Below, in pieces: positions 1-6,438 of a stretch of 29,954 bases of DNA. The translations under genes and the position numbers were made by a program. The first letter of the stretch is position 1; every line of letters begins with the position of its first letter. The notes below the pieces were generated by a model that saw only the letters and a list, made by a program, of their open reading frames with translations, made no database searches and had not been told where the DNA came from. The stretch is from a virus. Location: IMG/VR virus record IMGVR_UViG_3300027631_000093, positions 1-29,954 of that record. One strand, 5' to 3'.

Positions 1-108
1 CACTCTTACATTGAGGTTAAAATTTCTTTCTTTTCGAGTTGCTTATCTTACCGATATAAATTAAAATTGCAACACCTAAACAAAAATATTTTTTAAAAAG
101 GAAAAACT

Positions 109-279
109 ATGCTCACCCCAGATGAAATAATCAATAAATTAAAGCCCATGAATTTATCAGCAGTTAGTATTGCTATTGATGTTAATTACAATATTTTATG
201 GAAGTTTGCTAACCAAAAATTGAAACGTGTACCTTATGATTTAGTCAAAATTTTAAGTGACTATTTCAATGCTAAATGA
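109..279 (+). CDS. Small helix-turn-helix DNA-binding protein (56 aa)
   Basis: This short ORF starts at an ATG preceded by a good ribosome binding site (AAAAAGGA, about 6 bases upstream) and encodes 56 residues. From about residue 14 the pattern of a Cro/XRE-like helix-turn-helix can be read: an LSAVSIAIDV helix, a turn, then a helix beginning NYNILWKFAN, followed by a basic segment and a closing helix ending in DYFNAK. There is no further domain, so it is probably a small repressor or an accessory DNA-binding protein acting on phage DNA. Its 3' end overlaps the ATG of the primase-helicase gene, so the two are likely cotranslated. The HTH call rests on residue pattern only; the specific target is unknown. 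Confidence 0.7.
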   Translation: MLTPDEIINKLKPMNLSAVSIAIDVNYNILWKFANQKLKRVPYDLVKILSDYFNAK

Positions 280-2161
280 ACTTAATGACGCAATAAAAGC
301 GGTAGGCTATACTCCTCCACACCATATTGGTATTGGTAAAGTTACTAGGTTTTCGACTAACAACAAGCAAGCTGATAGGTCTGGATGGGTATTAGTTTTT
401 GACGATGGGAAAGGTGCAGTATTTGGATGTTGGCGCAGTGGAGAGCAACACCAATGGCAAGCGCATAGAGATTATGCGCCAAGTATTACTGAGCAGGAGG
501 CAATGCGTCAGCAATTTGAAGAAGCTAAACGCAAAGCAACACTGCAACGTGATGAAGATTATGCAGTTGCGGCTAGAGAAGCAAAATCATTATTTGATGC
601 GGCAGTTGTTGTTAAGGAACATGATTACTTAACGGATAAAGGAATCAATCCAAACATGGCTAAAGTGTTTGGCGGTAAGCTCCTAATACCTGTTTATGAT
701 GAACTTGGCAATATACAGTCATTGCAATCTATATTCAGTGATGGAGCTAAAAGATTTCATTCTGGCGGTAAAATGCAAGGCGGTCATTGTTGGATAGGAG
801 ATCCAATCGCCAGTGAAACATTATTGGTAGCAGAAGGTTTTGCAACTGCGGATAGTTTATACCAAGCTACTAATTTAGCTGTGTGTATAGCATTTAACGC
901 AGGAAATCTTAAAGCTGTTACTGACATGTTAAAAATACAATACGATAAGAAGCGTATTGTTATTTGCGCTGATAATGATGTTAGCGGCATCGGTATTGAT
1001 AAAGCAAATCTATGCGGTGTTGATGTTGTCTATCCTGACATTCATGGCGATTTTAATGATGTTATGAAGAAACATGGCATTGATGCTGTTCGTGACATTG
1101 TTTTTGGCAAAATAAAACATGAAGGATTGTTTGTATCACTAACTGAAATGATGAGCAATGTCACCACACCACAATGGTTGATCAAAGGAATACTTGAGCG
1201 TGGATCAAATAATTTACTGTTTGGTGAATCTGGTGCAGGTAAAAGTTTATTCGCTATGGATTGGGCATTTTGCGGTGCGATTGGTAAAGATTGGCATGGT
1301 CACAAGGTAAAAGAAGAGCTGAACACCCTTATCATCATGGGTGAAGGTTTGCGTGGTGCTACATTTAGATTTAAGGCATTGATGCAGAAGTATAGTGGAA
1401 GCAGTATAAATGGAGATCGTATACGTTTTAGCAGAAGATCTATTAATTTACTTGATGCTCGTGAAGCGGAGAATATTTGTAAGTTGGTAGAGGATATGGA
1501 TTTCAAACCAGACATTATTATTATTGATACTTTGCACAGAAACATGGTTGGTGACGAAAATAGTAGTGAAGATATGGCAATGTATTTTAAGTCTATAGAA
1601 TTGCTCGCTAGACGATTAAATGCAGCGATAATTACTGTCCACCATAGCGGTCATGGGGACAAGGGAAGATCAAGAGGATCGTCGTCAATTAAGGCTGCTA
1701 TGGACGCAGAGTTTTGTGTCAGTAAGGACGGTAAGGATGTTGTTAAGTTTGCATGTACTAAGTCTAAAGATTTTGGAGCTGGTTCGGACATGAAGTTTAG
1801 CATTGAAGAAGTTGATCTTGATGGAGAAATGTTCTATGACGTTGATGAAAAGAAGCAGATTACTTCTGTTTATTTAAAGTATGAAGGTGTTGCTTCTAAA
1901 AAAGAAAAAGAGTTGACAGAAAATCAACAAAAAACAATTGATTCTTTAGTTGAAGCATTAGAAGTTCATGGCAAAAAAGATTGCGTTATGGATAATGAAG
2001 GTGGGTACTATACCACTGTGCATTATGATGAGTGGTATCCCTTTATTAAAGAGGTATTTAAAGGTGCTCGAAACGTATCAAAAAACTTTATACGTTGTAA
2101 AAACTCCTTGTTAAAACAAAAGGTTATAAGTAATAATGGTAGCTATTGGTGGCTGGTATAG
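269..2161 (+). CDS. Phage primase-helicase (Toprim plus RepA/RecA-like ATPase)
   Basis: The protein is 630 residues from the ATG at 269; a GTG at 257 is also in frame but the ATG fits the overlap with the upstream HTH gene. The N-terminal part resembles phage primase N-domains. A Toprim fold follows, with the catalytic Glu near residue 189 (VAEGF) and the DxD pair near 235-237 (ICADND). The C-terminal half is a RepA/AAA_25-type RecA-fold helicase: Walker A GESGAGKS at about 319-326, Walker B IIIID at about 416-420, and a conserved HHSGHG motif downstream. It should make primers and unwind DNA at the phage fork. No zinc-binding cysteine set is evident at the N-terminus, so template recognition may differ from DnaG. 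It is the only clear replication enzyme in the window. The bifunctional assignment is well supported by motifs. Confidence 0.9.
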   Translation: MLNELNDAIKAVGYTPPHHIGIGKVTRFSTNNKQADRSGWVLVFDDGKGAVFGCWRSGEQHQWQAHRDYAPSITEQEAMRQQFEEAKRKATLQRDEDYAVAAREAKSLFDAAVVVKEHDYLTDKGINPNMAKVFGGKLLIPVYDELGNIQSLQSIFSDGAKRFHSGGKMQGGHCWIGDPIASETLLVAEGFATADSLYQATNLAVCIAFNAGNLKAVTDMLKIQYDKKRIVICADNDVSGIGIDKANLCGVDVVYPDIHGDFNDVMKKHGIDAVRDIVFGKIKHEGLFVSLTEMMSNVTTPQWLIKGILERGSNNLLFGESGAGKSLFAMDWAFCGAIGKDWHGHKVKEELNTLIIMGEGLRGATFRFKALMQKYSGSSINGDRIRFSRRSINLLDAREAENICKLVEDMDFKPDIIIIDTLHRNMVGDENSSEDMAMYFKSIELLARRLNAAIITVHHSGHGDKGRSRGSSSIKAAMDAEFCVSKDGKDVVKFACTKSKDFGAGSDMKFSIEEVDLDGEMFYDVDEKKQITSVYLKYEGVASKKEKELTENQQKTIDSLVEALEVHGKKDCVMDNEGGYYTTVHYDEWYPFIKEVFKGARNVSKNFIRCKNSLLKQKVISNNGSYWWLV

Positions 2162-2280
2162 TATATACCTACCACTAAAATACCTAGGGTATATGATACC
2201 TGTTAGTGGAATGATCTAGGATATACCTACCATACCCCCTCTCTATAAGAGGGGTATAGTGGTATGTCATTTGGTATGGG
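2155..2280. repeat. Cluster of TACC/GGTA inverted and direct repeats
   Basis: Several short dyads lie back to back. They are GGTATA-gta-TATACC (2155-2169), TACC-TAG-GGTA (2181-2191), GGTAT-ATG-ATACC (2188-2200), a longer CCACTAA...TTAGTGG pair (2172-2209), and a strong hairpin of CCCCTCT (2236-2242) with AGAGGGG (2248-2254), loop CTATA. ATATACCTACCA occurs twice (2163-2174 and 2221-2232), and GGTATG recurs at 2261-2266 and 2273-2278. The cluster sits right after the primase-helicase gene. It could be an origin with iterons, an operator array, or an RNA structure. The hairpin has no T tract, so it is not a typical terminator. Confidence 0.75.
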
Positions 2281-2287
2281 ATTGTGG

Positions 2288-2437
2288 ATGGATAAAATAA
2301 ATGAGTTTTTAACAATGGTACAAAAACAGTTTGGTATAAGTGCTGTTGCGATTAAGGAGGATGGTAAGGTTGTATTGCATGAAGGTAAGTTTCAGCAGAA
2401 GAGAAATGGAGTTGTTGATGAAAAGAAAAATGACTAA
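2288..2437 (+). CDS. Small hypothetical protein (49 aa)
   Basis: This is a 49-residue ORF from the ATG at 2288; in-frame ATGs at 2264 and 2276 would give 57 or 53 residues. The 2288 start has a GGGA about six bases upstream. For the 2264 start, the purine-rich AGAGGGG lies inside the right arm of the hairpin at 2236-2254, so that start could be controlled by RNA structure. The product is hydrophilic, with a beta-like central stretch (ISAVAIKEDGKVVLHEGKF) and a charged tail. No family is recognised. Its 3' end overlaps the next small gene by 20 bases, in line with the packed arrangement of this cluster. Confidence 0.5.
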   Translation: MDKINEFLTMVQKQFGISAVAIKEDGKVVLHEGKFQQKRNGVVDEKKND

Positions 2438-2516
2438 ATGGTACTTAATGCCTGTTGCTTTAGTGATAGGAATGTTTATAGCGTTATTTGGAATATTATT
2501 ATGGGTGATGCGTTAG
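2418..2516 (+). CDS. Single-span membrane micropeptide (32 aa)
   Basis: This 32-residue ORF has a clear ribosome binding site, GGAG, six bases before the ATG at 2418. The product starts with a basic MKRKMTK segment and continues with one hydrophobic stretch (about residues 9-30), predicting an inner-membrane peptide with its N-terminus in the cytoplasm. An internal ATG at 2430 would remove the basic head. It overlaps the gene before by 20 bases and the next by 16. The function is unknown. A holin role cannot be inferred, as no endolysin or spanin lies nearby. Support is the start signal plus the membrane-peptide composition. Confidence 0.5.
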   Translation: MKRKMTKWYLMPVALVIGMFIALFGILLWVMR

Positions 2517-2584
2517 CAGTAATACCGTATAGTGGTTGTGTTATTATTTTTATTATTGTTTTGTGGAATGAATGGAAAGAGTAA
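2501..2584 (+). CDS. Membrane micropeptide (27 aa)
   Basis: This is a 27-residue ORF with a hydrophobic core (about residues 5-22, rich in Ile and Val) and a charged WNEWKE end. The start at 2501 overlaps the 3' end of the preceding membrane micropeptide gene, and a weak GGA lies about eight bases upstream. Its TAA overlaps the following gene region. It could be a real overlapping gene or chance hydrophobicity in AT-rich DNA. The overlap pattern, which continues through the whole cluster, is the main argument for it. Confidence 0.35.
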   Translation: MGDALAVIPYSGCVIIFIIVLWNEWKE

Positions 2585-2802
2585 TGGATGCGTTAGATGT
2601 TAGTGATTTAATTGAAGAAGGGATTTTAGAGAAATTACTACTGAATATACACAACAAAGCGATTAAGATTAATATTAATGGGGATGGGGCTTGTTTAACT
2701 TGTGGGCTAGATGTAGAACCTATAATTTTTAAGGGGAATATCACTGTACCTAGATGGTGCAGTGATGGTTGTCGATTAGCATGGGCATGGGATAATGACT
2801 AA
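2572..2802 (+). CDS. Small Cys4 zinc-binding protein (76 aa)
   Basis: The protein is 76 residues from 2572, or 72 from an in-frame ATG at 2584 that overlaps the stop of the upstream micropeptide. The N-terminal half is a helical acidic stretch. The C-terminal half holds a CLTCG pair (Cys 41 and 44) and a WCSDGC pair (Cys 63 and 67), giving C-x2-C-x18-C-x3-C, a likely zinc knuckle or treble clef. The layout is reminiscent of DksA/TraR-like phage proteins (helix, then Cys4), which modify RNA polymerase, but the spacing and last pair differ, so this is only an analogy. It overlaps the following gene by eight bases. Confidence 0.6.
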   Translation: MERVMDALDVSDLIEEGILEKLLLNIHNKAIKININGDGACLTCGLDVEPIIFKGNITVPRWCSDGCRLAWAWDND

Positions 2803-3028
2803 ACATAAACATTACTACAAAGATGTACGACATTTAGATGCGGTTGATGTGTATCGTGTACTGGAGTTGTTTAACGTGACAGATGCTTGTATTCAACATG
2901 CGGTAAAGAAGTTGTTGTGTGCAGGAACAAGAGGAAGTAAAGATGTAGAGCAAGATGTAGAAGAGGCTATTGATACATTGGGGCGTTATTTGGACATGAG
3001 AGTGGAAGAGGAGCTTAAACATGATTGA
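2795..3028 (+). CDS. Small helical phage protein, DUF3310-like
   Basis: This 77-residue protein begins with a His/Tyr-rich HYY segment, followed by DVYRVLELFNVTDACIQHAV, KKLLCAGTRG and an EEAIDTLGRYL helix. This arrangement (HY head, helix with a basic K-K-L-L-C-A-G-x-R-G turn, then D-x-x-E-A-I-x-T-L-x-R-x-L) matches the widespread small phage protein family annotated as DUF3310, which some have linked to nucleotide metabolism. The role is unproven. It starts eight bases before the stop of the Cys4 gene and ends eight bases into the next micropeptide gene, so it belongs to the same transcript. Confidence 0.65.
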   Translation: MTKHKHYYKDVRHLDAVDVYRVLELFNVTDACIQHAVKKLLCAGTRGSKDVEQDVEEAIDTLGRYLDMRVEEELKHD

Positions 3029-3104
3029 AGTAATAGTTTGGCTAGGGGTTGGGTATATCGTTGCGTCATGGGTGTTTTTCGAGCTGTATAAGGATTTATT
3101 TTGA
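3021..3104 (+). CDS. Membrane micropeptide (27 aa)
   Basis: This is a 27-residue ORF with a strong ribosome binding site, AGGAG, seven bases before the ATG. The product is almost entirely one hydrophobic helix (about residues 3-21) followed by a short charged ELYKDLF tail. It overlaps the upstream DUF3310-like gene by eight bases and the next gene by a TTGA overlap. No family is recognised. The start signal is among the best in the cluster, so translation is likely, while the function is unknown. Confidence 0.55.
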   Translation: MIEVIVWLGVGYIVASWVFFELYKDLF

Positions 3105-3229
3105 AATTGGTAGAATGTGAACATACTCATTGGTTAATGCTTTATTCAATGAGGCAAAAATGGTGTTACGGAAAAGGATGTAATGAGAAAAGGAATATTG
3201 AAAACGATATGCCAGTACATACAAGATGA
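3101..3229 (+). CDS. Small Cys/His protein with TTG start (42 aa)
   Basis: This 42-residue ORF begins at a TTG overlapping the TGA of the upstream gene (TTGA). An AAGGA sits six bases before the TTG, an ideal ribosome binding site, which decides the start. The product has CEHTHW near residue 6 and WCYGKGC near residues 21-27, so Cys and His residues are spaced as in a small zinc-binding unit. No family is recognised with certainty. The stop overlaps the ATG of the next gene (ATGATG). The TTG start would be missed by ATG-only gene callers. Confidence 0.5.
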   Translation: MKLVECEHTHWLMLYSMRQKWCYGKGCNEKRNIENDMPVHTR

Positions 3230-3345
3230 TGAAACCAAAGATTAAATTCGTAGGGAATTATTGGAAATGTTATAGTTTAGATAGAGTTGCCTATGGTGAA
3301 ACGCCAAAGGCGGCATGGGTTAATTGGGTCAGTCAATATTTTTAA
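3226..3345 (+). CDS. Small conserved-type phage protein (39 aa)
   Basis: This 39-residue ORF starts at 3226, or at an adjacent ATG at 3229. The product reads as a short beta strand ending in YWKCYS, then GETPKAAWVNWV. The pattern W-x-C ... G-x-T-P-x-x-A-W-x-x-W is familiar from tiny ORFs in many phage early regions, where the TP-AY/AW-W segment is a helix start, but no function is known. It closes the micro-gene chain and is followed by the ribosome binding site of the next gene. Confidence 0.5.
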   Translation: MMKPKIKFVGNYWKCYSLDRVAYGETPKAAWVNWVSQYF

Positions 3346-3357
3346 AGGAAAAATGTA

Positions 3358-3936
3358 ATGAGCATAAGTTCACACAATAACAATCAGACGTTAGATAATG
3401 GTGCAATACCTGTTAGAACTGTGTTTGGAGCAGTACCAACATCGCCTACTTATACAGCGACTAGGGCTGATGTTACTCCTGCTGCTACGCCAACGGATAT
3501 TATTTTGTTGATGGGAAGTGCTACCAAAACAATTATAGTGACTAAGTTTGAGATAACACCAACAGCTACAGCCAACGGAACTTTAGATTTTTATATCTAC
3601 AAAAGAACAACTGCAAATACTGGTGGTACATTTGCTACAGATGGTATAGCAAAGAATGATAGTTTAAATGCAAATTCAACAGCCACTATTAAGTTATATA
3701 GTGCTAACCCATCATCATTGGGTACAGGACAATTGATTAGAGGTAGAAGAATGTCATTGGCTTCTAAAACACCTAATGGCATTCCTGTCCAAGAATGGGT
3801 AGAAGAGTTTGGTAATAACAACCAACAACCTATGGTGTTACGTGGTGTAGGTGAATCTTTATGTATTAACATGAATGGTCAAGCAATGCCTAGTGGAACA
3901 GAGTTTTATTTTACTTTTGAATGGGTGGAGTTGTAA
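3358..3936 (+). CDS. Beta-rich virion-type protein in the early region (192 aa)
   Basis: This is a 192-residue protein with AAGGA eight bases before its ATG. The composition (many Thr, Ala, Asn, Gly; no long helices) is that of a phage structural or receptor-binding domain. There is a strand-rich core with KTIIVTKFEITPTATANGT followed by DFYIYKRT, and a late segment with EWVEEF and FEWVEL. The layout loosely parallels the small protein encoded at 29138-29539, which also has a T-K/D-I-x-I strand followed by an (F/Y)IY strand. Such proteins normally sit with late tail or capsid genes, so its place after the replication micro-genes is unusual. The exact role (decoration, fibre tip, other) cannot be told. 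Confidence 0.55.
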   Translation: MSISSHNNNQTLDNGAIPVRTVFGAVPTSPTYTATRADVTPAATPTDIILLMGSATKTIIVTKFEITPTATANGTLDFYIYKRTTANTGGTFATDGIAKNDSLNANSTATIKLYSANPSSLGTGQLIRGRRMSLASKTPNGIPVQEWVEEFGNNNQQPMVLRGVGESLCINMNGQAMPSGTEFYFTFEWVEL

Positions 3937-3971
3937 GGGAGCTTGCTTGCACGAACTTGCTTACAAACTAC

Positions 3972-3987
3972 TATGTATATTTACATA
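3972..3987. promoter_or_regulatory. Short dyad upstream of the KGG gene
   Basis: TATGTA (3972-3977) and TACATA (3982-3987) form a perfect inverted repeat around TATT. It lies in the 68-base gap before the KGG gene, which also holds three copies of TTGC. It could be an operator or part of a weak promoter; no well-spaced -35/-10 pair is visible. Confidence 0.25.
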
Positions 3988-4004
3988 AACATTAGGAGAA
4001 GAAT

Positions 4005-4185
4005 ATGATTAAAGGACAGGCTGGGGGGCGAAGCTAGGGCTAAGATACTTAGTCCGGAGCGCAAGGAAACTATTGCTGGTGAAGGGGGTGATGCAAGAGC
4101 ATCGTCATTAACACCTGAAAGACGGCATGAAATAGCGGTAGAAGGCGGTAAAGCATCGCATGGTAGCCGATTTACAAAAAAGTAA
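4005..4185 (+). pseudogene. KGG-repeat protein gene with an apparent one-base frameshift
   Basis: The ATG at 4005 has an excellent ribosome binding site (AGGAG, six bases). The frame stops after ten codons (TAG at 4035). Skipping one G in the G6 run at 4023-4028 restores an open frame to a TAA at 4183. The rejoined product is about 59 residues with two typical KGG-type units: GEARAKILSPERKETIAGEGG and a second with SLTPERRHEIAVEGG, ending in KASHGSRFTKK. Such short repeats are found in stress-related bacterial proteins (KGG family) and in many phages, with unknown function. The lesion may be a true mutation, phase variation in the G tract, a +1 frameshift, or a sequencing error in a homopolymer. 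Confidence 0.65.
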
Positions 4186-4213
4186 GGTATAGATATAGAT
4201 ATAGGTTTGATGA

Positions 4214-4254
4214 GAACGTGGCTTATAAGTAAAATTCTTGGCTACGTTTTTTTT
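4214..4254 (+). terminator. Rho-independent terminator of the early rightward operon
   Basis: The stem is formed by AACGTGGCT (4215-4223) and GGCTACGTT (4240-4248), with two G-U pairs, and is followed directly by a run of eight T (4247-4254). It lies just after the KGG gene and ends the rightward early block; the next genes run the other way. Confidence 0.8.
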
Positions 4255-4780
4255 GTGCTTGGGATTTAGGGATGTTGGATGTTGCGTGTTGCGTGTTGGG
4301 ATTTAGGGATGTTTTGTGAATGGTGTGGAATGTTGGCTAGGTTGGAATTGTTGATTTTTAAGGCAAAATTGCAGAAATTGCACATTGAATACAAATGATT
4401 CTCATTTACAATGATTTTAGGGATTTTACCTCAAAAAATTATCTAAAATAAAACTTTTTAGGGATTTTACATCACTTTTAAAATATACGTTTTAAGGCGT
4501 TTAAATAAAAAGTAATGGTACTATATAGGTAAACTGTAAAAGAGCTTTAAAACGTGTTTTTAAAGGTTTATTGATAATATAATCAATAACTTGAATAGAT
4601 TATAGGCGTTTATTGGATAGGATATAATGTGGTGTATTGTCACGTTATAACTATATAGATTTATAGGCGTTTTAAAGTATTAAATAACTTTATAGTTGAA
4701 TGATTTTATGATGGGTAATAGTAGGCTAGCTGGTAAGCTTTAAAAGTAGCTTATAATGGGTAATTAGGGATATTTTAGGC
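4255..4780. repeat. Gene-free AT-rich region with direct repeats
   Basis: No convincing gene is visible in this 526-base stretch, which lies between two terminators pointing at each other. Direct repeats include GGGATTTAGGGATGTT (4261-4276 and 4298-4313, with GTTGCGTGTTGCGTGTT between them) and TTTTAGGGATTTTAC (4415-4429 and 4456-4470). A third pair is ATAGATT(T)ATAGGCGTTT (4595-4611 and 4655-4672), and GGGTAAT recurs near 4713 and 4758. The right part is very AT-rich. An origin of replication, a partition-like site or an operator region are possible; an attachment site cannot be excluded but no integrase is in the window. Confidence 0.6.
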
Positions 4781-4808
4781 AAAAAAAAGCCATCGGTTAA
4801 GATGGCTT
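4781..4808 (-). terminator. Rho-independent terminator of the leftward operon
   Basis: Read on the minus strand, AAGCCATC (4808-4801) and GATGGCTT (4794-4787) form a perfect 8-bp stem with a 6-base loop. The run of eight A on the plus strand (4781-4788) gives the T tract. It lies 22 bases after the stop of the last leftward gene. Confidence 0.85.
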
Positions 4809-4830
4809 ATAGGGTTATTGGGTTATGGGG

Positions 4831-4995
4831 TTATAATTTAAAGTGTTTAATTAATAAATATTGAATCAATTTGCTTTTGTTGCGCTCTATTTTTAACCTA
4901 TTAACAAGGATAACGGGTAACGATATCATTACGCCCTTGTTTTTCAAATCATCCGGTATAGTTGGTCTGCCTGGTGGTTGTTTGTAGTTTTTCAT
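4831..4995 (-). CDS. Small basic protein, possible ribbon-helix-helix regulator (54 aa)
   Basis: This is a 54-residue ORF on the minus strand. Its ATG overlaps the stop of the upstream small gene as ATGA, so translation is probably coupled. The N-terminus is basic and proline-rich (KNYKQPPGRPTIPDDL). Next come a short strand (GVMISLPV) and two helices with ERNKSKLIQYLL. A strand of alternating hydrophobic residues followed by two helices with a K/R-N-K-S turn is typical of MetJ/Arc-type regulators, and the GRP segment resembles an AT-hook-like minor groove contact. It is the last gene before the terminator at 4781-4808. It could regulate the phage early region; this is inference from pattern alone. 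Confidence 0.55.
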   Translation of the reverse strand: MKNYKQPPGRPTIPDDLKNKGVMISLPVILVNRLKIERNKSKLIQYLLIKHFKL

Positions 4996-5123
4996 AATGG
5001 ATAAGTAACAGTTGATTGATGAATTTTTGCAAACCGCGTGGCGGTATCTAAGTAATCAAATAACATAGATGTTAAATAAGCGCCAACAATGGGGCAAGAT
5101 TGCCAATAATAGACTTTATACAT
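4992..5123 (-). CDS. Small hypothetical protein (43 aa)
   Basis: This is a 43-residue ORF on the minus strand, beginning five bases after the stop of the clamp-like gene and sharing an ATGA overlap with the last gene of the operon. The sequence is rich in Tyr and Thr (MYKVYYWQS, LTSMLFDYLDTATRFAKIH) and probably mainly helical. No family is recognised and no signal peptide or zinc motif is present. The support is the overlap and spacing, which match the other genes of this leftward block. Confidence 0.45.
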   Translation of the reverse strand: MYKVYYWQSCPIVGAYLTSMLFDYLDTATRFAKIHQSTVTYPL

Positions 5124-5127
5124 AATC

Positions 5128-5679
5128 TTATAACCTACAAGGCGCGATTACATAAATAATGTCATCGGATGGCATAAAATACCCCGCCTGATTAAAACTA
5201 TACAAGCGTTTTGGCGCGGTATCACCAAAATATATACATAGTGATTTATTTGCTAATGATATGTAATCCCAATCAAATTGATGTTGTATAGCGTTTAAGT
5301 TTTTATCATGGTCATTAACTTTTATAGGATCAATTATCTTTTTAAACTCAGGGTATTTATGATCTATTGGCGTGAATACTTCAACCTGGTTCATACATTG
5401 CAATTGGTGTTGGTCATTAATTAAAAATATACCAACTTCAAAATTATCACACATTTTACCGCCAACTTTCTTCAATAAAGCCTTAACAGTTTCTACTGGG
5501 ATAATAATATTATCGTGATTATCTGGAATATCATTTTTATAGGTATTTATATGGCATAACATATGACCATTTGATACTGTAACGTGAGTTTTGGTGATGT
5601 TAAGGCCGTTTAAATAATATCTGATATCTGCTTTTTTTGGGGTTGCGCTTAGTGCAAGCCTTAGATCTTTTAGTTTCAT
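5128..5679 (-). CDS. Sliding-clamp-like protein (DnaN middle-domain pattern, 183 aa)
   Basis: This 183-residue protein has the landmarks of one DNA polymerase III beta-subunit domain in order. VSNGHMLC (residues 36-43) corresponds to the A-T-D-G-H-R-L strand-turn of DnaN. IIIPVETVKALLKKV (59-73) corresponds to the i-v-P-r-k-x-l-x-e-l helix. FTPIDHKYPEFKKIID (102-117) corresponds to the l-i-d-G-k-F-P-d-Y-x-x-v-i-P segment. DnaN is about 370 residues with three domains, so this is roughly half length. It might assemble into a phage clamp as a multimer, or bind host polymerase or clamp. The ATG has AAAAGAG about eight bases upstream inside a 20-base leader that is repeated before another gene of this operon. 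The clamp-fold call is by motif only. Confidence 0.55.
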   Translation of the reverse strand: MKLKDLRLALSATPKKADIRYYLNGLNITKTHVTVSNGHMLCHINTYKNDIPDNHDNIIIPVETVKALLKKVGGKMCDNFEVGIFLINDQHQLQCMNQVEVFTPIDHKYPEFKKIIDPIKVNDHDKNLNAIQHQFDWDYISLANKSLCIYFGDTAPKRLYSFNQAGYFMPSDDIIYVIAPCRL

Positions 5680-5680
5680 T

Positions 5681-5700
5681 TTATATACTCTTTTAGTTTA
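5681..5700 (-). repeat. Leader repeat, copy 1
   Basis: On the plus strand this reads TTATATACTCTTTTAGTTTA, identical to 6313-6332. It lies just before the ATG of the clamp-like gene and holds its AAAAGAG binding site. On its right (5695-5716) a run of AGTTA-type units continues. Confidence 0.8.
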
Positions 5701-5717
5701 GTTAAGTTAAGTTAAAA

Positions 5718-5909
5718 TTAATTCTCTTTTATATAGCGAGCTAATTGATCTCTAAAGTTTTGAACATCTATATTCCTATACTCTTTTACTACTCTTAGAC
5801 AATACGGCGGTTTTAAACTATCATTAATTGATGATACGTTACCAGTTACACCAGCCAAGTATTGAGCGATTTTAAAAGTTTTGCATTGAGTTTTATATAC
5901 TGAGTTCAT
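5718..5909 (-). CDS. Small hypothetical protein (63 aa)
   Basis: This is a 63-residue ORF on the minus strand. The ATG at 5909 has AAAGGTG six bases upstream and is preferred over an in-frame GTG nine bases earlier that lies within that binding site. The protein is basic and mixed, with KTFKIAQYLAGVTGNVSS near the start and a helical end NFRDQLARYIKEN; a PPYCLRVV segment is central. No domain is recognised. It lies between the gene for the 129-residue F-AF-EQF protein and the clamp-like gene, with an 11-base gap after the former. It probably shares their promoter. Confidence 0.6.
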   Translation of the reverse strand: MNSVYKTQCKTFKIAQYLAGVTGNVSSINDSLKPPYCLRVVKEYRNIDVQNFRDQLARYIKEN

Positions 5910-5920
5910 TTTATACACCT

Positions 5921-6310
5921 TTAAAAATAGTCGTTATCAATACAGTTTTGATAATAGCTAGCCCATTCTTTTTTAATATCATCTTCTGTTATTCCATAAG
6001 GTTTTAAAGCTTCGCAAGCGTCGCTGTAGTCGCCTGTTATTTGACACTCATAATTAGCCAATGAGTCCCAAATAATATCTTTTAAGGTATTGTTCTCTAA
6101 TTCAAATTTAATTTTAAAGTTATAAGAATTTTTTAATTGAGCTTGTAATGAGTCAATATTACATGATGGGCAATATAATCCGCCCCCTAGATTGCTATAA
6201 GCTACCGGTTGATCGGCGCAAGTATTAAATTGCTCATTGCCGAAAGCAAAAAAAGCCCCGTTAATAGTTAAAATTTTTTCTTGTTCTAGTTCTATATTGC
6301 AATGTTTCAT
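5921..6310 (-). CDS. Small conserved-type phage protein with FFAFGNEQF motif (129 aa)
   Basis: The protein has 129 residues from the ATG at 6310. An upstream in-frame ATG at 6352 exists, but 6310 has AAAAGAG eight to nine bases before it and starts right after the preceding gene. The N-terminal half contains NGAFFAFGNEQF, then a DQPVAYSNLGGGLYCPSCN segment, so Phe/Gly-rich strands with two cysteines (C-x2-C). The C-terminal half is acidic and helical (ITEDDIKKEWASYYQNCID). Small phage and plasmid proteins with the FFAF-x-x-EQF pattern exist, from memory, without known function. No enzyme motif is seen. Confidence 0.6.
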   Translation of the reverse strand: MKHCNIELEQEKILTINGAFFAFGNEQFNTCADQPVAYSNLGGGLYCPSCNIDSLQAQLKNSYNFKIKFELENNTLKDIIWDSLANYECQITGDYSDACEALKPYGITEDDIKKEWASYYQNCIDNDYF

Positions 6311-6312
6311 GG

Positions 6313-6332
6313 TTATATACTCTTTTAGTTTA
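6313..6332 (-). repeat. Leader repeat, copy 2
   Basis: This is the second copy of the 20-base leader (see 5681-5700), placed before the ATG at 6310. It also contains the stop codon of the upstream membrane peptide gene (6325-6327). Shared leaders suggest a duplicated translation signal or a shared regulatory site. Confidence 0.8.
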
Positions 6333-6438
6333 AAGTTGATAGAATGATGCAAATTACCCGTATACCACCAATAAAAAAAATTGATGCAATACCGGAAAGG
6401 ATATAAATTTTGTAGCTTGTTTTAAGTAGGTCATTCAT
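6325..6438 (-). CDS. Membrane peptide, first gene of the leftward operon (37 aa)
   Basis: This is a 37-residue ORF on the minus strand with AAAGAG eight bases before the ATG at 6438. After a short polar head (MNDLLKTSYK) almost all the rest is one hydrophobic stretch (about residues 11-35, including SIFFIGGIRVICIIL), so a single-span inner-membrane peptide is expected. It is the first gene after the leftward promoter and would therefore be strongly and early expressed. The function is unknown; small early membrane proteins in phages can act in exclusion or takeover, but nothing here shows that. Confidence 0.55.
   Translation of the reverse strand: MNDLLKTSYKIYILSGIASIFFIGGIRVICIILSTLN

Follow-up and report, generated by a model that had tools for sequence, protein, structure and literature searches.

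Eight overlapping small phage genes of nin-like character and an adjoining putative origin cassette

Downstream of a phage primase-helicase gene, a row of very short open reading frames overlaps head to tail, and the question that this locus raises is whether the frames are genes at all and, if they are, what sort of region they form. The window, by which we mean the whole stretch of DNA analysed, comprises a linear virus record of 29,954 bases (IMG/VR IMGVR_UViG_3300027631_000093, positions 1 to 29,954) that encodes terminase, a DUF1073-type portal, capsid and tail genes. The nearest cultured-phage portals are 48% identical to that of the window; a terminase search returned distant MAG contigs only, and alignment of the primase against species genomes found no relative. 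The primase-helicase lies at 257–2161 on the + strand (634 aa; Pfam AAA_25, 1.5e-29, and Toprim_3, 1.1e-7).

Eight + strand frames, here called A to H, were found at 2264–3345, as the earlier note had described. Their limits as called are 2264–2437 for A, 2418–2516 for B, 2438– or 2501–2584 for C, 2572– or 2584–2802 for D, 2795–3028 for E, 3021–3104 for F, 3101–3229 for G, which has a TTG start, and 3226–3345 for H. On the called starts the successive overlaps are 20, 16, 13, 8, 8, 4 and 4 bases, in agreement with the 4–20 bases given before; the B/C overlap becomes 79 if C starts at 2438, and the C/D overlap becomes 1 if D starts at 2584. E has 77 residues, one more than the largest size stated previously, and the starts of A, C and D had to be corrected. 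A chain of eight is far from what composition would give: in 1000 dinucleotide-preserving shuffles of the stretch the mean chain length was 1.45 and the maximum 4, and on the reverse strand the value was 1. The strong ribosome-binding sites that had been noticed were also seen, as Shine-Dalgarno-like sequences upstream of 2418 (-5.9 kcal/mol), 3021 (-8.3) and 3101 (-6.0).

To judge the frames by comparison we used 47 related viral contigs retrieved with a primase query, and frame conservation was assessed by tblastn together with ORF clustering. The frame of A was kept in about 37 loci, those of B and E in 34 each, that of G in 20–33 and that of H in 25–30; C and F were kept in eight close loci each and D in six, with remoter D relatives elsewhere in the block. 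Conservation of the frames in relatives had been named as the check to make, and the frames are indeed kept for the block as a whole, with no blockwide loss. Pairwise dN/dS across the block frames was mostly 0.06–0.48. In a permutation test, the observed substitutions were placed at random and the amino-acid changes were counted against expectation; for seven of the frames (A to E, G and H) one relative or more gave p<=0.003. This pattern of substitutions reveals purifying selection on these seven, F being the exception. In F the amino-acid changes are at chance level, and the frame is unbroken where 1.3–1.5 stops would be expected in two diverged comparisons. The comparison confirms A to H as real small genes, F being the weakest of the eight because its count of amino-acid changes is not below chance.

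The same comparison led to three corrections of starts. A was moved to 2288, where the methionine is invariant among its relatives; the ATG at 2264 lies by a hairpin arm inside a repeat array, it is not conserved, and in locus L003 it lies in another frame. C was moved to 2501, the upstream part (2438–2500) showing no coding selection (p=0.46–0.93) and being a shadow of B. The start of D is probably 2584. An extra ORF at 3183–3245 was rejected by the substitution test as a shadow of G. In some relatives single genes are damaged: L025/L026 have an interrupted H, and in L028/L029 the middle part of G is missing, which suggests that both genes are probably dispensable. Such damage, and the fact that ORFs of 27–57 codons are common by chance, are what could be said for regarding the frames as shadows that arose by chance in non-coding or decaying DNA. 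The substitution pattern refutes this for seven of the eight, with F the weakest case, and neither the kept frames nor a chain of eight against a shuffle maximum of four agrees with it; we regard it as hardly credible. Comparative analysis by itself can establish dense phage micro-gene chains, most of whose members are shorter than gene callers accept.

When all eight proteins were searched against Pfam, NCBIfam, PADLOC and PHROGs, the sole significant match was that of E. The 77-aa product of this gene (2795–3028, + strand) matched phrog_2452 over residues 2–75 (E 5.9e-31), and the family (PHROG 2452/13223) was matched in 860 phage records, either stand-alone or fused with other domains. The AF2 model of E (pLDDT 83.8) shows a predicted three-helix, DUF3310-like fold. 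A Foldseek search of the model in BFVD ranked members of its own family highest, and most of the next matches were DUF3310, SaV-like and 'nucelotide kinase' (sic) proteins; the matches beyond the family, between predicted models on both sides, had a probability of 1.00, E of 0.006–0.05 and 15–30% identity. The slot of E is held by DUF3310 in L102, L127, L128, L134 and L137 and by DUF6378 in L104 (5.9e-5), and in Idiomarinaceae phage 1N2-2 a MazG-like gene (7.9e-4) follows the primase-helicase. The BFVD matches and, independently of them, the presence of DUF3310 in the same slot show that E resembles DUF3310 proteins both in its predicted fold and in its place among the genes.

The resemblance to DUF3310 and T7 gp1.7 (PF11753) lies in the predicted fold and the gene slot, whereas a significant Pfam profile match is absent for E and its family: PF11753 gave no match for the window E at E<=1 or, at E<=5, for five further proteins of the family, and hhalign of E with DUF3310 was weak (probability 11%, E 0.0027). 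A PDB sequence search with E gave nothing significant, and VIA-align on the model gave only middling matches to unrelated helical proteins (Z up to 4.2). DUF3310 has been connected with T7 gp1.7 and its nucleotide kinase activity (PMC10700055), which none of the sources consulted assigns to the DUF3310 domain itself. These comparisons point to a putative role of E in nucleotide metabolism, and they connect the fold of DUF3310 with PHROG 2452, a family known from hundreds of phage records.

Gene D (2584–2802, + strand; 72 aa, or 76 aa from 2572) encodes a predicted zinc protein with four cysteines (C4) and an N-terminal DxxDxS motif; it showed 3 amino-acid changes against 17.2 expected (p=0.0005). 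Both aspartates of DxxD and the four cysteines are invariant in 12/12 aligned sequences, and the spacing C-x2-C...C-x3-C is found in all 12 but L038. The motif reads DALDVS in the window and DExDxA in most same-block relatives. PHROG 54 (DksA-like zinc-finger protein) matched relatives of D in L102 (2.7e-8), L006 (6e-8) and L186 (9.1e-10); the window D itself gave no match to PHROG 54 at E<=1, and it matched a profile built from three of its relatives (E 0.0037). The AF2 model, of moderate pLDDT (70.9), has a helix at residues 7–28, strands and a second helix at 65–75. Among PDB chains TraR (6n57_M) ranked first, weakly (Z 2.7, rmsd 11.6), and the zinc half of the model also fits the gyrase inhibitor YacG (Z 2.1, rmsd 2.3 over 34 residues).

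TraR and lambda Orf73 cannot act on RNA polymerase without the N-terminal DxxDxA motif, which reaches the RNAP active site, and with Orf73 the yield of lambda is three- to four-fold higher (PMC9239242). D is similar to TraR, lambda Orf73 and P2 Orf82 in length, in the N-terminal DxxD and in the C4 zinc motif, and its model suggests a comparable helix-zinc-helix layout; it differs from them in its spacing (C-x2-C-x18-C-x3-C) and in the last motif residue, which is S and not A. On motif and model, the best reading of D is a putative, divergent RNA-polymerase-binding protein of the TraR/DksA type.

The remaining six genes, all on the + strand, are smaller. Gene A (2288–2437, 49 aa, 52 viral loci) carries the motif A-x-A-I...H-E-G-x-F-Q-Q and showed 8 amino-acid changes where 17.3 would be expected (p=0.0005). 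Gene H (3226–3345, 39 aa, 42 viral loci) has the motif K-P-K-I-K ... Y-G-E-[ST]-P-K-x-A ... N-W and 13 changes against 18.7 (p=0.003). The families of A and H had no counterpart in the libraries searched (Pfam, NCBIfam, PADLOC and PHROGs), and H gave no matches among phage records. Gene G (3101–3229, 42 aa) encodes a predicted zinc-binding peptide with 8 changes against 17.3 (p=0.0005), in which C-x-H, C-(x2 or x4)-C and a late H are invariant in 14/14 aligned sequences. With its three cysteines in the window and the four of D, it accounts for the two Cys-rich peptides noticed before. Likewise, the three single-span hydrophobic peptides proved to be B, C and F, whose best 19-residue Kyte-Doolittle means are 2.77, 2.45 and 1.97. 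B (2418–2516, 32 aa) was found in 34 loci and had 7 changes against 12.9 expected; C (2501–2584, 27 aa), found in eight close loci, had 7 against 12.5 (p=0.0005 for both). F (3021–3104, 27 aa), preceded by a strong Shine-Dalgarno site, is an open frame in eight close loci.

The earlier note had taken the block for a store of undescribed proteins. This stands for most of the eight, for which Pfam, NCBIfam, PHROGs and PADLOC gave no matching family; E, a member of the very widespread PHROG 2452/13223, and D, whose relatives match PHROG 54, are not wholly undescribed. It had further suggested inhibition of host functions or exclusion; on such a reading the membrane peptides would block superinfection and the cysteine peptides would inhibit host enzymes. 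The presence of three single-span and two Cys-containing peptides would suit such a store, and D, if TraR-like, would be in its spirit, as it would reprogram host RNA polymerase and repress host rRNA promoters in the way lambda Orf73 does (PMC9239242); a DUF3310 protein is also toxic in mycobacteria when overproduced (PMC10700055). However, there were no PADLOC matches, B, C and F have no detected homology to known exclusion proteins, E points to nucleotide metabolism, and nothing tested ties the membrane peptides to exclusion. The suggestion is borne out in part at most, and we consider it rather unlikely that the block is mainly an anti-host store.

A second possibility for B, C and F is that they are holin- or spanin-like and that the block belongs to a lysis cassette. 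They are single-span and hydrophobic, and in L102 a block of this kind is closely followed by the genes for a lysozyme and a GTA_holin_3TM holin. Inspection of the window genes, however, recognised no endolysin beside the micro-genes; in relatives that have an endolysin and a holin, these are encoded beyond G by larger genes of their own, and B comes straight after A, in the replication region. A lysis role is therefore very unlikely in our estimation.

The gene order in relatives points elsewhere. They contain extra small genes, X7 (45 residues) before E and X9 (28 residues) before H, and D-like genes occur at three positions, i.e. after A (L102/L019/L023), after E (L186/L201) and after H (L006/L091). 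Distant relatives of A and G were found in phages with another primase (DUF7146/Toprim). After that primase come NinB (6.5e-20), YbcO (1.7e-31), a RusA-like gene (2.1e-10), the E slot and G, with lysozyme and holin further on, and some of these phages add a 43-residue membrane peptide after G. Because the order varies by insertion and exchange, and because NinB, YbcO and RusA-like genes are neighbours in relatives, the block appears to be a reduced nin-like accessory region. As in the lambda nin region, small genes, many of them overlapping, are tightly packed between the genes for replication and those for lysis or packaging; unlike that region, the window copy is without recombination genes and has only micro-genes of 27–77 codons. 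Free-standing HNH endonuclease-like genes were also seen downstream of the primase-helicase, at differing block positions, in L010, L022, L033 and L088.

It seems likely that the whole locus is a coupled operon of eight real nin-like genes together with an adjoining putative cassette of origin and protein domain. The chain would most likely be transcribed together with the primase-helicase and be translationally coupled, and it may serve to adjust the infected cell, with E acting in nucleotide metabolism, D on host RNA polymerase, G by zinc binding and B, C and F in the membrane. Promoter and terminator scans gave counts not above those of shuffles, and Rfam had no matches at positions 1–6000. 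The micro-gene block belongs to a known class, and of the two parts of the locus the cassette is the less usual.

Between the primase-helicase and A lies an iteron-like array (2162–2287), a putative replication origin, with nine non-overlapping ATACC/GGTAT words. It overlaps the first ORF start as originally called (2264) and closes with a strong hairpin at about 2222–2265. Nine words compare with a shuffle mean of 3.9 and a maximum of 7, and this is the densest ATACC spot in the window; a composition profile had no clear skew turn at the array. In loci without an insert, the interval from the primase-helicase to A is 122–126 bases and the hairpin stands 19–22 bases before the start of A. Seven word types were distinguished, namely ATACC (window), TGTCC, CATCC, CATACA, ACCCAC, ACCTC and reversed GGATG (L008); the CATCC count of L012 alone is not significant, being reached by 84/1000 shuffles. 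Arrays follow the homologous gene also in the cultured phages Idiomarinaceae 1N2-2 (GGTACA), Alteromonas PB15 (GGTTCA) and Salicola CGphi29 (GGGACA), and were not seen after it in two other records examined.

We also scanned the viral collection for the patterns on DNA alone, which returned many contigs already known by protein. Dense arrays with a known upstream flank lay nearly all just after a primase-helicase with a matching C domain, and sparse hits of 1–4 words resembled chance. Two exceptions, L246 and L251, have eight TGTCC words after a distant primase-helicase with a C-terminus unrelated to the TGTCC-type domain. These scans found no array without a primase-helicase, and hence no sign of satellites using these origins.

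What changes together with the words is the end of the primase-helicase. Residues about 545–634 form a lineage-specific, swappable C-terminal domain, which can differ between proteins with a nearly identical N part. L007 and L008, whose words differ, are 99% identical over residues 1–540 and 37% over 545–634; L007 and L019, which share a word, are 75% and 78% identical over the same parts. The borders are sharp: DNA identity of L007 and L008, mostly 90–100%, falls to 28–56% from about 250 bases before the stop to 100 after it and is back to 96–100% in A. Among 32 distinct loci, array similarity correlated with that of the C domain at r 0.92, and still at a partial r of 0.92 after control for the N part, whereas its partial correlation with the N part, the C domain being allowed for, was -0.11. 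Word type changed 12 times on the N-part tree and 6 times, the minimum, on the C-part tree.

Another explanation of the array is that it is an operator or attenuator of the micro-gene operon and not an origin. Its place directly before A and the strong hairpin close to the start of A would fit this. Yet the word follows the C domain, the hairpin was not flagged as an intrinsic terminator, and A and B DNA is nearly identical across word types. The upstream HTH protein, moreover, is an unlikely reader of the words, since it is nearly identical in L006 and L007, which differ in word. We consider control of the operon from the array unlikely.

The simplest account of the covariation is that the array is probably a replication origin with iterons, that it would be read by the C domain of the primase-helicase, and that the two move as one cassette, with the micro-gene operon as its conserved flank. 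As the domain adjoins the array, joint exchange alone would also link word and domain; the constant geometry under changing words favours recognition and does not prove it. A PDB sequence search with the C domain gave nothing significant. We are fairly confident that these phages change origin specificity by swapping about 90 C-terminal residues together with an array of about 125 bases, with at least seven words on backbones up to 99% identical.

Phage P4 alpha protein acts with a repeat-containing origin. The window protein is similar in having primase and helicase in one polypeptide (Toprim_3, AAA_25) and, putatively, an origin-binding C-terminal domain; it differs in its helicase family (AAA_25, RecA-like). 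A parallel in terms of exchange is offered by the PLE satellites of Vibrio cholerae, which have modular replicons (RepA_N and an iteron origin) of proven cognate specificity; selection there was proposed to favour escape from a nuclease directed at the origin (PMC8263062). In both cases one domain covaries with the iterons or iteron-like words and has been replaced several times over in an otherwise conserved protein, the C domain described here being a presumed DNA-binding domain. Unlike PLE, this is a whole-phage lineage, the domain is at the C terminus of a primase-helicase, and seven word types occur in one family. Switching of the origin might perhaps allow escape from satellites, co-infecting phages or origin-directed nucleases. 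If the array is an origin, these phages offer natural matched pairs of domain and repeat in genomes whose backbones hardly differ, and both the recognition of DNA and the reason for the switching could be tested in them directly.

Some further genes were observed downstream of the block. Right after it, at 3358–3936, a structural-looking protein of 192 residues is encoded, which also occurs in L002, L004, L088 and L089, other genes being found there in most relatives. A short KGG-repeat-like gene at 4005–4185 has its frame broken near the start in the window and in L002 and is intact in L004 and L088. On the - strand, the product of 5128–5679 has a weak match to the central domain of DNA polymerase III beta (sliding clamp; E 0.0029), and near this clamp-like gene, at 5921–6352, also on the - strand, there is a gene for a DUF7659 protein (4.2e-23).
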